NCBI GenBank assembly: GCA_016874295.1
Contig: VGUH01000003.1
Coordinates: 1-64,000 of the forward strand
Direction: 5' to 3'
Length of the DNA: 64,000 bases
Source: Gammaproteobacteria bacterium
GTDB taxonomy: Bacteria > Pseudomonadota > Gammaproteobacteria > Steroidobacterales > Steroidobacteraceae
Shown one piece after another: positions 8,046-41,706 of this stretch. Numbering within the stretch: position 1 is the first letter of the stretch; each line of letters opens with the position of its first letter. A program made the translations under genes and the position numbers. The notes beneath the pieces were generated by a model. It was not told the DNA's origin, searched no databases, and saw nothing but the letters and a program-made list of their open reading frames with translations.

Positions 8046-8127
8046 GGTGCCGGGTCGCACTTATCGCACTTATTGGCGGGCCTGCCGCTAAGAACCCCAA
8101 CAAGTGCGATAAGTGCGACCCGGCACC
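8046..8127. repeat. family A palindromic repeat, copy 1
   Basis: The left arm 8046-8075 starts GGTGCCGGGTCGCACTTATC; its reverse complement is at 8098-8127 with one mismatch and a 22-base loop. Near-identical elements occur at 17604-17668 and 41651-41706. On the right it is followed by a 14-base tandem duplication (GCACCGTACTTCAG at 8123-8136 and 8137-8150) that contains the thpR stop codon. No gene lies between recA (7898) and thpR (8147). The size and hairpin form are those of REP/BIME-type elements mobilised in trans by REP-associated tyrosine transposases. It may also terminate thpR transcription. Confidence 0.9.
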
Positions 8128-16984: not shown

Positions 16985-17620
16985 TCATCCAAAGCGACCA
17001 GTGGCGAGGAACTTTACCGCCGACTCCGCGACCACGGACGAGAACAGCATGCCGGTGTGACTGATGTCATGCACGATTCGTGACGTCGCGCCCGGAAGCG
17101 CGGTCTCCGCGACGCTGACCGTGCCGTCATTCGGCTGCGGCAACTCCGCGAAGGCGCGACCGATGCCGATCGGCAGCGAGCCGGCGATGACGCCGACCTC
17201 GCGCGACAGCGGCGACATGGGCTTGCGCTCGCGCGCGAGTTCGGCGAGCGCGAGCGGTCCGAGCGCCGCCGGCCCGAACCAGTGCGAGGCGACGGCCCGC
17301 GCGGTTCGCGAGCCGCGGATCGGCGAGCCCATCAGGACGACGCGCCCGGTCGGCAGGTCCGGGTGACGCGCGTAGGCCTCACAGGCGACCAGCCCGCCGA
17401 GGCTGTGGGCGATGACGTGCACTGTCGCGCCGAGATCGCGCAGGCACCCGGCGAGCTCGTCGCCGGCGGCAGGGAGCGTCGCGTGCATCGAGTGGTAGTG
17501 AAATACCGAGGGCGCAAAACCCGCGCGCCGCAGCCGGTCGCGCAGCAGGAAGAACTCGAGCCCGTTGAGCCAAAGGCCGTGAACGAGAACAACGGGAACA
17601 ACGGGTGCCGGGTCGTACAT
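16985..17620 (-). CDS. alpha/beta hydrolase (lipase-like), start inside a repeat
   Basis: About 211 residues with the oxyanion strand VPVVLVHGLWLNG near the N-terminus, the nucleophile elbow VIAHSLGGLVA, LMGSPIRGSRTA and a C-terminal His in VHDISHTGML, the layout of small triacylglycerol-lipase-like hydrolases (EstA/LipB type). No signal peptide is visible, so it is probably cytosolic or its signal was lost. Both possible ATG starts (17641 and 17620) lie inside repeat A copy 2; the family-like part begins only at VPVVLVHG. The repeat seems to have landed at, or replaced, the original start. Translation may depend on readthrough from aspS, whose stop is 61 bases upstream. Confidence 0.75.
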   Translation of the reverse strand: MYDPAPVVPVVLVHGLWLNGLEFFLLRDRLRRAGFAPSVFHYHSMHATLPAAGDELAGCLRDLGATVHVIAHSLGGLVACEAYARHPDLPTGRVVLMGSPIRGSRTARAVASHWFGPAALGPLALAELARERKPMSPLSREVGVIAGSLPIGIGRAFAELPQPNDGTVSVAETALPGATSRIVHDISHTGMLFSSVVAESAVKFLATGRFG

Positions 17621-17668
17621 ATCGCACTTATTGTCCTGCAATAAGTGCGATATGTGCGACCCGGCACC
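17604..17668. repeat. family A palindromic repeat, copy 2
   Basis: Arms 17604-17633 and 17639-17668 pair over 30 bases with a 5-base loop and one mismatch (GTACAT against GCACAT). The consensus is shared with copies at 8046 and 41651. On the right a tandem CCGTCATGG (twice between 17666 and 17685) includes the aspS stop codon. The left part provides the start codon(s) of the lipase gene. Confidence 0.9.
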
Positions 17669-32278: not shown

Positions 32279-33181
32279 TCAGCGCTCCGGCTTGCGCCTG
32301 CGCCGGCGGCGTGCGGCCAGCGCATGCTTCATTGCGACGCCGAGGTCGGCGGCCGAGCGCACCGTGCGCACGTTGGCCTCCTCCAGCGCGGCGTACTTGT
32401 CCGCCGCCGTGCCCTTGCCGCCCGCGATTACCGCGCCCGCGTGGCCCATGCGCTTGCCGGCCGGCGCCGTGACGCCCGCGATGTAGGCGACCACCGGCTT
32501 TTCCACGCTGCGCCGGATGTACTCGGCGGCCGCTTCCTCGTCGCTGCCGCCGATCTCGCCCACCATGATGATTCCGGCGGTGTCCGGGTCCCGCTCGAAC
32601 AGCGCGAGCGCCTCGATGAAGTTGAGGCCGCGCACCGGGTCGCCGCCGATGCCGACGCAGGTCGTCTGGCCGAGGCCGGCACTCGTGGTCTGGAACACGG
32701 CCTCGTAGGTGAGCGTGCCGGAGCGCGAGACGATGCCGATGCTGCCCTGCCGGTGGATGAAGCCCGGCATGATGCCGACCTTGCACTCGCCGGGCGTGAT
32801 CACGCCCGGGCAATTCGGGCCGACCAGCCGGCTCCTGCCGCCGGCGAGCGCGGCCTTGACGCGCACCATGTCGTTGACCGGGATCCCTTCCGTGATGCAG
32901 ACCACGAGGCGGATGCCGGCGTCGGCCGCCTCGAGGATCGCGTCCGCCGCGAACGGCGCCGGCACGTAGATCACGCTCACGTCGGCGCGGGTTGCCTGCA
33001 CGGCGTCGTGCACGGTGTCGAACACCGGCCGGTCGAGGTGGCGCGTGCCGCCGCGGCCCGGTGTCACGCCGCCGACGAGATTGGTGCCGTAGGCGATCGC
33101 CTGCTCGGAATGAAACGTGCCCTGCCTGCCCGTGAAACCCTGGCAGATCACGCGGCTCCTGCGGTTGACGAGGATGCTCAA
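32279..33181 (-). CDS. sucD: succinate--CoA ligase, alpha subunit
   Basis: Binds CoA and carries the phosphohistidine of the TCA-cycle enzyme. The 300-residue protein shows [78 protein letters not shown] and the active-site His in [18 protein letters not shown]. The Arg-rich end ([10 protein letters not shown]) is more basic than usual. TTG start 33181 overlaps the sucC stop (TTGA); no ATG or GTG fits better. Confidence 0.96.
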
Positions 33182-34356
33182 CGCCGGCTTCCCGCCTGCG
33201 CGAGGCGCACGGCCTGTGTGGCGGCATCCGACAAGTCCCTCGCCACGGTGATGGCAAGCCTGCTCGCGGCGAGCAGCGCGCGCGCCGTGTCGGCGTTCGT
33301 GCCCTCGAGGCGGACGACGACCGGCAGGTTGACGCCGGCGCTCTTCACCGCCTGGACGATGCCCTCGGCGATGACGTCGCAGCGCACGATGCCGCCGAAG
33401 ATGTTGACCAGGATCGCGCGCACGCGCGCATTGGACAGGATCAGGCGGAACGCCGCGGTCACGCGTTTCGCCGTCGCCGTGCCACCGACATCCAGGAAGT
33501 TGGCGGGCTCGCCGCCGTGCAGCTTGATGAGATCCATGGTCGCCATCGCGAGGCCGGCGCCATTCACCATGCAGGCGATGTTGCCGTCCAGCGAAACGTA
33601 GTTGAGCTCGTGCTCCGAGGCCTCGCGCTCCATCGCGTCTTCCTGCGCGGGATCGCGCAGCGCGACCAGCTCGGGCTGGCGGAACAGCGCATTCGCGTCG
33701 ACGTTGATCTTCGCGTCGAGCGCGACCAGCCCGCCCTCCCGGGTGACGATCAGCGGGTTGATCTCGATCAGCGCCAGGTCGCGCTCCAGATACAGCCGGT
33801 AGAGAGCGCGCGCGATGCGCTCGAACTCGGCGATCTGCCTGCCTGCGAGGCCGAGTCCGAATGCGAGCCGGCGGCACTGGTAGCCCTGCAGGCCCACCGC
33901 CGGGTCGACGTCGACGCGCAGGATCTTGTCCGGCTCCCGGGCCGCGACTTCCTCGATGTTCATGCCGCCCGCGGCCGAGGCGATGAAGGCGATTCGGCCG
34001 CGCTCCCGGTCGAGCAGAGGGCTGAGATAGATCTCGCGCGCGATCGCGCTGCCCGACTCGACGTAGACCTGGTTGACTGGCAGGCCCGTGCTGTCCGTCT
34101 GCGGCGTCACGAGGCGCCCGCCGAGCATGCCCTTCGCCGCGGCGCCCACCTCGGCGGCCGAATGGCACAGCTTGACGCCGCCCGCCTTGCCACGGCCGCC
34201 CGCGTGCACCTGCGCCTTGACCACCCAGACCGGCCCCGGCAGTTCCCGGGCGGCCGCAACGGCTTCGGCCTCGGTCGCGGCAACCTTGCCGGCCGGCACC
34301 GGTATGCCCGCCTCGGCGAAGATGCGCTTCGACTGGTATTCGTGGAGATTCATCAT
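33178..34356 (-). CDS. sucC: succinate--CoA ligase, beta subunit
   Basis: ATP-grasp subunit that sets nucleotide specificity and contributes to succinate binding. The 392-residue protein begins [20 protein letters not shown] and has [71 protein letters not shown] and [18 protein letters not shown]. Two adjacent ATGs (34356 and 34353) are possible. It faces pilD across about 85 bases. In Xanthomonas-type genomes sucC faces pilS at this point, which bears on the pilD entry. Confidence 0.97.
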
Positions 34357-34441
34357 GACATTCTACCGGCTGTCATGAACCGCGTCGCAAACGCGGCCCG
34401 CGCGCCGGGTGACCGCAAACCCGCGTGCTAGAGTGAAGGGC

Positions 34442-35455
34442 GTGAAAACGCCGGCGGCAACCGAGAGAACGGCGGGCGATCCGGAACTCGCCTGGCGCGT
34501 GCTCGGGCTGCTCAACCTCTACCGCCTGGTCGTCCCCTCGGTACTCGTGGCGCTCGCGCTACTGGCGGCGCGCTTCCAGCTGCTCGCGGCCAGTCCCGCC
34601 CTGTTCACGGCGGTGGCGGGGCTCGTCGGGCTCGCCATCGGCAGCTTCCTGAACGTGGTCATCCACCGCCTGCCGCTGGTGCTCGAGCGGCAGTGGCGCG
34701 CGCGGGCGGCGGAACTCGAGGGGCGGCAGCCCGCGGCGCCGACCGAGGCCTATGGCCTCGTGCGGCCACGCTCGCGCTGCCCCGCCTGCCAGGCGCCGAT
34801 CCGCGCCGTGCACAACGTCCCGGTCGTGAGCTGGCTCCTGCTGCACGGCCGTTGCGCCGCCTGCGGCGCGCCAATCTCCGCGCGCTACCCCCTGGTCGAA
34901 CTCGCGACCGGCGCCGCCTTCGCCGTTGTCGCCTGGCATTTCGGCTTCGGCATGGCCGCAGTCCTCGGCTGCGTCTTCACCGCTTATCTGGTCGCGCTCA
35001 CCGGCATCGACCTCGACCGGCAGCTGCTCCCCGACATCCTCACGGTGCCGCTCCTGTGGATCGGCCTGATCGCGAGCGCCTGGTTCGGAGCCGGCGAAGC
35101 TCCGCCGCCCGCGGTCCTCGGCGATGCCGTGATCGGCGCGGTCGCCGGCTACGGATTCCTGTGGCTCGTGTTCCACCTGTTCCGGCTGATCACCGGCAAG
35201 GAGGGCATGGGTTACGGTGATTTCAAGCTGTTCGCCGCGATCGGCGCCTGGCTCGGCTGGCAGATGCTGCCGCTGGTGCTGCTGCTCGCGGCCTTCGTCG
35301 GCGCCGCGGTCGGCATCGCACTGATGGCGGCACACCGGCTCGGGCGCAGCGTGCCGATACCATTCGGACCCTATCTCGCCGGCGCGGCCTGGATCGCGCT
35401 GCTGTGGGGACCCGGACTCGTCGAGCGCTACCTGCGATTCGCCGGGCTCGGCTGA
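34442..35455 (+). CDS. pilD: type IV prepilin peptidase PilD with PilS-like N-terminal segment
   Basis: PilD cleaves and N-methylates type IV prepilins and type II secretion pseudopilins. With this GTG start the protein is 337 residues. Family landmarks: GLAIGSFLNVVIHRLPL, zinc cysteines C113-x2-C116 and C138-x2-C141, catalytic Asp190 (TGIDLDRQLLPD) and Asp260 (GMGYGDFKLF). Residues ~13-44 (ELAWRVLGLLNLYRLVVPSV...) are not PilD-like but match the opening of the sensor kinase PilS, adding one membrane helix before the normal start region (FQLLAASPALF). It looks like a deletion fusion of pilS to pilD. GTG 34409 and 34433 are alternative starts. coaE follows 7 bases later. Confidence 0.88.
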   Translation: MKTPAATERTAGDPELAWRVLGLLNLYRLVVPSVLVALALLAARFQLLAASPALFTAVAGLVGLAIGSFLNVVIHRLPLVLERQWRARAAELEGRQPAAPTEAYGLVRPRSRCPACQAPIRAVHNVPVVSWLLLHGRCAACGAPISARYPLVELATGAAFAVVAWHFGFGMAAVLGCVFTAYLVALTGIDLDRQLLPDILTVPLLWIGLIASAWFGAGEAPPPAVLGDAVIGAVAGYGFLWLVFHLFRLITGKEGMGYGDFKLFAAIGAWLGWQMLPLVLLLAAFVGAAVGIALMAAHRLGRSVPIPFGPYLAGAAWIALLWGPGLVERYLRFAGLG

Positions 35456-35462
35456 GCGGGCG

Positions 35463-36062
35463 ATGTTTCGCATCGGCCTGACGGGCGGCATCGCGAGCGG
35501 CAAGACGACGGTTGCGAACCTGTTCGCGGCCCGCGGCGCAACGGTGCTCGACACCGACGTGATCGCGCGCGAAGTCGTCGTCCCGGGCAGCCGTGCGCTC
35601 GCCGCGCTGGTCGCCGCGCAGGGCGGCGGCATCCTCGACCGGCAGGGCAGACTCGATCGCGCGGAACTGCGCCGCCGGATTTTCGCCGACCCGGCGACTC
35701 GCCGCGAAGTGGAAGCCATCCTCCACCCCGAGATCCTCGCCGAGCTCCAACGCCAGGCGGCGCGTGCGCCCGGTCCCTACCAGGTCTTCGTCATTCCGCT
35801 CCTGGTCGAAGCCGGACTCGAGCATCTCGTGGACCGCGTGCTGGTCGTCGACTGCACGGAACAGGAGCAGATCCGGCGGCTCGCGGTGCGTGACGGGGAG
35901 TCACGGCAAGACGCCCTGCGCATGCTCGAGACGCAAGCCACTCGCGAGCAGCGCCTCGCTGCCGCCAACGACGTGATCGACAATGGCGGTGCCGCGGCGG
36001 GCCTGGCGGCCCGGGTGGCCGAGCTCGACCGCCTGTATCGCGATCTGGCCCGGAAACATTGA
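35463..36062 (+). CDS. coaE: dephospho-CoA kinase
   Basis: Last step of CoA synthesis. The 199-residue P-loop kinase begins MFRIGLTGGIASGKTTVANLF and has VLDTDVIAREVVVPGS, the DRAELRRRIFADP segment, EAILHPEI and VIPLLVEAGL, and DNGGAAAGLAARVAEL at the end. ATG 35463 is 7 bases after pilD. pilD-coaE-zapD-yacG is the conserved gammaproteobacterial order; the enzyme completes the pathway of the 22.7-27 kb operon. Confidence 0.97.
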   Translation: MFRIGLTGGIASGKTTVANLFAARGATVLDTDVIAREVVVPGSRALAALVAAQGGGILDRQGRLDRAELRRRIFADPATRREVEAILHPEILAELQRQAARAPGPYQVFVIPLLVEAGLEHLVDRVLVVDCTEQEQIRRLAVRDGESRQDALRMLETQATREQRLAAANDVIDNGGAAAGLAARVAELDRLYRDLARKH

Positions 36063-36113
36063 GGATTTCGCACTCCAAGCGTGCCGGGCGTCACACCGGC
36101 AAGGTTTACGCCC

Positions 36114-36938
36114 ATGGAACCCCTGCCGCAAAATAGGCCCATGTTCGAGGCCGCGCCGGAACAGAGGCACGATCCGGAGCCGATCGTGTACGAACAGCCG
36201 CTCAATGAGCGGATGCGCGCCTTCATGCGCCTCGAGTTCCTGTGGCAGCAGCTGTCCCACCACGCCGGCGTGCCGAACGCCTGGTCGAGCCGCGCCGCCG
36301 TCGCGTGCCTGCTCGAGATCCTCGCCATCACGGCGCGCGGCGACTCGCGCGGCGACGTGCTGAAGGAACTCGAACGGCAGATGTCGGCGCTGCGCGATTT
36401 CCAGAACCGGCCGGGCGTGGACGGCGCGCGCCTGCGCGCCGTGCTGTCCGCGTTGATGCGCCGACGCGAGGAATTGAATGCGACCGGCGCGAACTTCATG
36501 CAGAAGCTGCGCGAATCGGAGTTCCTGAATGCGATCAAGCACAGGAGCGCGATCCCGGGCGGCACCTGCGAATTCAACCTGCCGGATTTATACCACTGGC
36601 TCTCGCTCGATCCGGACACGCGCGAGGCCGACCTCGCCGCCTGGATTGCGACCATCCGGCCGCTGTGCGAGTCGATCTCGGAGCTCCTGTGGATCACGCG
36701 CGAGAATGCGCGGCCGAGCGAGGAGAACGCGCCTGGCGGCAGCTTCCAGATCGTGTTCGAGCGCGATCGGCCGGTGCAGCTGCTGCGGATCACGCTGCCG
36801 GGCGGTTCGCATCTCTACCCGGAGGTGAGCGGCAGCCACCACCGCTCGTCGCTGCGCTTCCTGCGCTGGAACAGCGTGCACAGCCGCCCGGCCCAGGCGA
36901 ACGAGGACGTGCGGTTCGTGCTCGCGATCTGCTACTGA
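36114..36938 (+). CDS. zapD: cell division protein ZapD
   Basis: ZapD (DUF1342) cross-links FtsZ filaments at midcell through the FtsZ C-terminal peptide; ftsZ is at 47.9 kb. The 274-residue product shows VYEQPLNERMRAFMRLEFLW, FQNRPGVDGARLRAVLS, GTCEFNLPDLYHWLS and VRFVLAICY at the end, all conserved in the family. ATG 36114 has AAGG nine bases upstream; GTG 36081 and ATG 36141 are alternatives. The first ~30 residues are a non-conserved extension compared with E. coli ZapD (247). Confidence 0.93.
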   Translation: MEPLPQNRPMFEAAPEQRHDPEPIVYEQPLNERMRAFMRLEFLWQQLSHHAGVPNAWSSRAAVACLLEILAITARGDSRGDVLKELERQMSALRDFQNRPGVDGARLRAVLSALMRRREELNATGANFMQKLRESEFLNAIKHRSAIPGGTCEFNLPDLYHWLSLDPDTREADLAAWIATIRPLCESISELLWITRENARPSEENAPGGSFQIVFERDRPVQLLRITLPGGSHLYPEVSGSHHRSSLRFLRWNSVHSRPAQANEDVRFVLAICY

Positions 36939-37101
36939 GCCGGATGGCGCGCGAAATTCCCTGCCCGCGCTGCGGCACGCGCCACGAGTGGGACGGCAAT
37001 CCCTGGCGCCCGTTCTGCAGCAAGCGCTGCAAGCTCATCGATCTCAGCGGGTGGCTGACGGGGGAGAACACGATCGCCGGGGAAGCAGCAGACATTTCCG
37101 G

Positions 37102-37116
37102 AGGGGACAGTCCCCT
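37102..37116. repeat. family B palindromic repeat, copy 3 (single arm)
   Basis: AGGGGACAGTCCCCT, a 7-1-7 palindrome preceded by GG, corresponds to one arm of the family B element (GGGGTCAGTCCCC) with an A for T change. It lies in the yacG frame, 19 bases from the stop of the convergent peptidase gene. The second arm is absent. Confidence 0.65.
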
Positions 37117-41650: not shown

Positions 41651-41706
41651 GGTGCCGGGTCGCACTTATTGCTCCGCAATAAGTGCGATAAGTGCGACCC
41701 GGCACC
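41651..41706. repeat. family A palindromic repeat, copy 3
   Basis: The left arm 41651-41671 (GGTGCCGGGTCGCACTTATTG) lacks one internal ~9-base TCGCACTTA unit; the right arm 41677-41706 is complete; loop 5 bases. Upstream, TCTGACGG occurs three times between the peptidase stop (41626) and the element (around 41622, 41635 and 41645), repeating the stop-codon region. It lies between convergent S9B peptidase and mutT genes. Confidence 0.9.

Follow-up and report, generated by a model that had tools for sequence, protein, structure and literature searches.

How can a gene for the prepilin peptidase PilD come to begin like the sensor kinase PilS? The question is raised by a gene in the window, by which we mean the whole 64,000-nucleotide stretch of DNA analysed here; it belongs to a draft assembly of 46 contigs, 98.8% complete, in which pilus families were searched for genome-wide. 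Very probably, one in-frame deletion fused pilS to pilD, and PilD, probably spared for the type II secretion system (T2SS), is now headed by the promoter, the GTG start codon and the first helix of pilS.

A reading frame made of two genes

The open reading frame at 34409-35455 (+) is present as the preliminary description had it, but its start at 34409 did not stand. Homology to pilS of G004 and G002, two genomes of the same genus, aligns from the first residue, and therefore the frame is best read from GTG 34442, which gives a protein of 337 aa. The sequence from this codon, VKTPAATERTAGDPELAWRVLGLLNLYRL, aligns from residue 1 with PilS of G004 (VNRPADIERTSGDPELAWRVLGLLNLYRL) and of G002; in G001, also of this genus, the aligned codon is GTA. 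Codons 1-44 (34442..34573, +) correspond to the cytoplasmic tail and transmembrane helix 1 of PilS, and residues 1-44 are 75% identical to the PilS N-terminus of G004 (BLAST E about 3e-17), 74% to that of G001 and 59% to that of G002. The Pfam family 6TM_PilS (PF25323) gives a partial match at the N-terminus (E 1.8e-4, 21.7 bits against a cut-off of 27), the score falling below the cut-off because only one of the six helices is present. By the same measure the fusion does not count as a six-helix PilS sensor kinase, and a Pfam search found no histidine kinase domain in the protein. The likeness to PilS that had been noticed in the first ~45 residues is thus a significant one.

Where does PilS end and PilD begin? 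The last PilS-like stretch is ...LVALALLAAR and the first PilD-like one is FQLLAASPALF, the very place from which family-like PilD had been proposed to run, which puts the breakpoint near codon 44-46. Judged against relatives, homology to PilD sets in near residue 46 (56-58 in the numbering of a 348-aa protein), and the junction zone, between the end of PilS similarity and the start of PilD similarity, is placed within about 4 codons at 34565..34582 (+). The PilD-derived part (34574..35455, +) comprises the zinc-binding cytoplasmic domain and the peptidase domain and is essentially complete, as judged from its A24_N_bact and Peptidase_A24 matches and its signature residues. That the gene is a PilS::PilD fusion born by deletion is well supported by these alignments; the junction is known from one assembly of a single strain.

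On one side, sucC (33178..34356, -) faces the fusion gene, in the arrangement that relatives show with pilS, with ~71% identity to G004 in the overlapping antisense frame (85% for sucD). On the other side the downstream order is retained: coaE (35463..36062, +; 66% identity to G004) starts 7 bp beyond the end of the fusion gene, with which it is probably co-transcribed, and then come zapD (36081..36938, +; 82%) and a yacG-like gene (36944..37111, +; 57%). The flanks are thus syntenic with G004: nadE, sucD and sucC before the gene, and after it coaE, zapD, yacG and a prolyl oligopeptidase-like gene. The G004 locus itself is intact, sucC facing pilS-pilR-pilA-pilB-pilC-pilD-coaE, with ~7 kb from pilS to pilD on one strand. 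The ancestral order supposed at the outset, sucC facing pilS, pilR to pilC between, and pilD-coaE at the end, is found there, except that pilA precedes pilB and not the reverse. Against this locus it is seen directly that a single in-frame deletion explains both the gene order and the protein.

The two parts are separate genes on the same strand also in G002 (~9 kb apart) and in G029, a genome of the same family (~7 kb). When the whole protein was searched against 59 related genomes, the PilD part was met at 64-71% identity in the same genus and the PilS part separately, in ORFs of ~544 aa; PilD of relatives with intact loci does not carry the extension. A PilS start and a PilD N-terminal region in one frame occur in 1 of 117 genomes of the order, the present one. 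Two sets of matches that looked like further fusions were rejected. L032 in G006 (match 15-347) belongs to an intact pilB-pilC-pilD-coaE locus and has a stop before the match, and for the extended matches L037 and L040, the PilD frame in G026 is 317 aa long while PilS has its own frame of 551 aa.

Which start codon serves the fusion? The string TGCTAGAGT at 34426..34434 (+), which resembles an extended -10 element and belongs to the pilS promoter region that the fusion inherited, is identical in all nine bases upstream of pilS in G004, G001 and G002, and reads TGCTAAATT in G029; the full sigma-70 consensus is not matched in this region, and the conserved string is short. The motif lies 7 nt ahead of the GTG (34426-34442) and is conserved at pilS in congeners, which suggests that the pilS transcript is leaderless or nearly leaderless in the genus. 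Alternatively, the fusion might exist in the DNA while translation begins further in, for instance at GTG 34547, so that a nearly ordinary PilD is made and the PilS part is just a 5′ leader. In-frame GTGs are indeed found at residues 20, 36 and 58, and the pilD start codon of G004 is not retained, being replaced by CTG. However, no clear ribosome-binding site precedes the internal GTGs, whereas GTG 34442 coincides in the alignment with the start of pilS in two congeners and comes after the conserved motif; internal initiation is therefore regarded as unlikely. Most likely, expression of an active PilD with an extra N-terminal helix, and of coaE after it, now depends on the promoter and start codon inherited from pilS, and the same promoter would probably carry the whole of coaE-zapD-yacG.

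The peptidase and its retained clients

Both A24 domains of a prepilin peptidase exceed their cut-offs in the fusion: A24_N_bact (PF06750) with 113.3 bits (E 5.7e-33, cut-off 23) and Peptidase_A24 (PF01478) with 87.5 bits (E 9.4e-25, cut-off 26.5). The zinc site Cys113/116/138/141 (CxxC...CxxC) and the catalytic Asp190 and Asp260 (GID..., GxGD) are intact, and these residues are invariant in 34 sequences. In PilD of Pseudomonas aeruginosa, the active site of the peptidase consists of the aspartates, and methylation requires zinc at the cysteines (PMC3584216). No A24 peptidase other than the fusion occurs in the genome. It matched none of the NCBIfam profiles and, in a sequence search, none of the solved structures; by Foldseek against the PDB, the GxGD protease FlaK ranked first with a weak E of 0.22.

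How would the membrane accommodate the added segment? PilS of P. aeruginosa has six transmembrane segments (PMC6058289). Hydropathy gives 8 segments for the fusion including the added one, that of the PilS part at 29-47 and the first of PilD at 56-74. There are 4 basic residues in the tail before the added helix, 0 in the loop after it and 11 in the next domain, a pattern which fits a tail and a zinc domain on the inside, with the loop between them on the outside. The AlphaFold model (pLDDT 83.5, pTM 0.78), from which a mixed PilS and PilD alignment that misplaced the PilS rows was excluded, has consecutive helices at 14-50 and 52-92, the added helix having modest confidence (pLDDT ~62-79). 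Judging from the charges and the model, it is plausible that the added helix runs in-to-out, that the first helix of PilD keeps its out-to-in orientation, and that the zinc and aspartate sites stay cytoplasmic.

In P. aeruginosa, according to an excerpt of PMC13170266, PilD is the one pilus gene common to pili and T2SS. Type II secretion genes, whose survival as PilD clients had been raised as a point to check, are retained here: gspC-F and gspG-N are intact, and GspD, E, F, G, I, J, K, L, M and N score over Pfam cut-offs, while GspH was recognised from its N-terminal motif and position and GspC from reading frame and position only. GspG, GspI and GspJ carry N_methyl motifs and are candidate substrates for cleavage and methylation by the fusion peptidase.

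Dismantling of the pilus

What is left of the pilus itself? Genome-wide, there is no PilB (the T2SSE ATPases are GspE, a PilT, a fragment and one sub-threshold match), no PilC (GspF is the sole T2SSF protein), no PilQ (GspD is the sole secretin) and no PilY1, for which all 5 relatives searched have matches. No PilA was identified among the pilin-like matches of the genome, and there is no second PilS, the fusion being the only 6TM_PilS match. Thus pilB, pilC, pilA and pilS, which the preliminary description wished to see looked for elsewhere, are absent throughout, and PilR is absent from the window, the extent of that search. A type IVa pilus machine, taken as PilB, PilC, PilQ and a major pilin, does not exist in this genome. 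On contig C5, a partial minor-pilin cluster (L131:5278-6851) has a frameshifted fimT-like gene, while its pilV-like and ComP/PilE-like genes are open though the pilus machine is gone.

Four further scars lie on three other contigs (C15, C17 and C18), and all are built alike: what was the 5′ portion of an early gene continues into the 3′ portion of a late one. On C15 (L147:8460-8945), pilM codons 1-~142 run in frame into the last ~23 codons of pilQ, with pilN, pilO and pilP removed and a TAG at codon 131. On C17, the genome's 'pilT', an intact in-frame hybrid of 353 aa (L133:6454-7512), has the N-terminal half of PilT and the C-terminal half of a third PilT-family paralogue: residues 1-160 resemble PilT of G002 (37-40/40 per block) and residues 200-353 the third gene of a pilT-pilU-pilU-like array (33-36/40 per full block), and therefore pilU was lost between the paralogues. 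On the same contig (L133:12507-13481), the junction between pilG and the 3′ end of chpA is out of frame, with both receiver domains and a stop present, and an intact CheW gene follows. Finally, on C18 (L134:5849-6951), adjoining metG, a HEAT-repeat gene runs, out of frame, into the sequence for the C-terminal part of a PilT-like ATPase. Together the scars show one coherent dismantling of the pilus. A dispersed palindromic REP-like repeat with CCGGGTCGCACTTATCG or close variants was also seen, at 8046-8127, 17604-17668 and 41651-41706 of the window and at L147:8960-9090, the last copy directly after the pilM::pilQ scar.

How old are these deletions? At otherwise-invariant sites, the PilS part has 1 unique change in 24 in the fusion against 7 in 30 in G002, and no decay is seen; the pilM relic shows no excess of unique changes (9/125 against 9/125), although one of them is the stop. 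Because the pilM relic has no such excess, the deletions are probably young. The fusion might be a decaying relic, its PilD non-functional and the region kept by continued transcription of coaE alone. With coaE so close downstream, stops or frameshifts in other scars and deletions that look young, such a state can be imagined, but it is quite unlikely, for the PilD signature residues are all intact in the only prepilin peptidase of a genome whose T2SS, pseudopilins included, is intact. Since the relics have hardly diverged, the intactness of the fusion is weak evidence of selection; the contrast between the open fusion and scars with stops or frameshifts is suggestive of retained function, the pilT hybrid being open too.

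The PilS helix takes part in pilin sensing and polar targeting. It is very doubtful that the captured helix gives PilD a new property, such as pseudopilin recruitment or polar placement, and that the fusion was selected as a protein and not only for promoter capture; as the deletions look young, conservation of the PilS leader does not speak for selection acting on it. A chimeric junction produced by assembly or binning, with an intact pilus locus in the living organism, is hardly credible even for a draft in 46 contigs, since pilB, pilC, pilQ, PilY1 and a PilA are missing throughout a 98.8% complete genome, the junction is in frame within a 142-kb contig with syntenic flanks, and independent scars at four unrelated pilus loci on several contigs make an artefact unlikely.

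The fusion by deletion would thus have proceeded as follows. From an ancestor with sucC facing pilS-pilR-pilA-pilB-pilC-pilD-coaE, a single in-frame deletion removed the DNA from pilS codon ~44 to about pilD codon 3, as the comparison with sister species shows. At least four more deletions took part in dismantling the type IV pilus of this lineage. Presumably, PilD was spared as it also processes pseudopilins of the T2SS, a system that is present. The loss of pilR to pilC would have taken any internal promoter of pilD and coaE with it, so PilD may have been kept for the T2SS, and coaE 7 bp downstream along with it, by a junction that left the pilS promoter and the frame in place, with the pilS promoter, GTG and first transmembrane helix now heading PilD.

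Relation to known systems

That pilus genes can be deleted, and that deletions can fuse genes, is already known. Neither the literature searched nor any other of the 117 genomes of the order yielded a PilD headed by PilS. The locus amounts to an experiment of nature on a shared enzyme, in which one of two PilD-dependent machines was lost and the other kept; it shows that one deletion can supply a new promoter, a start codon and a membrane anchor in a single step, and from five similarly laid-out scars in a single genome the way in which the pilus was lost can be read.

The excerpt of PMC13170266 reports in P. aeruginosa a phage-selected deletion of 7,559 bases spanning pilS-pilY1. As here, one deletion takes several pilus genes including pilS; in contrast, that one was selected in the laboratory and concerns another gene set, and no pilS-pilD fusion is described in the excerpt. 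With the sensor kinase PilS, the fusion shares the N-terminal tail, the first transmembrane helix, the start codon and the upstream motif, but it lacks five helices and all kinase domains, so that signalling is impossible. With PilD/XcpA of the P. aeruginosa type it has in common both domains, the four zinc cysteines and the two catalytic aspartates including GxGD, as well as coaE downstream and T2SS pseudopilins as likely clients, and it differs in its extra PilS-derived N-terminal segment and in adjoining sucC, without pilB or pilC.
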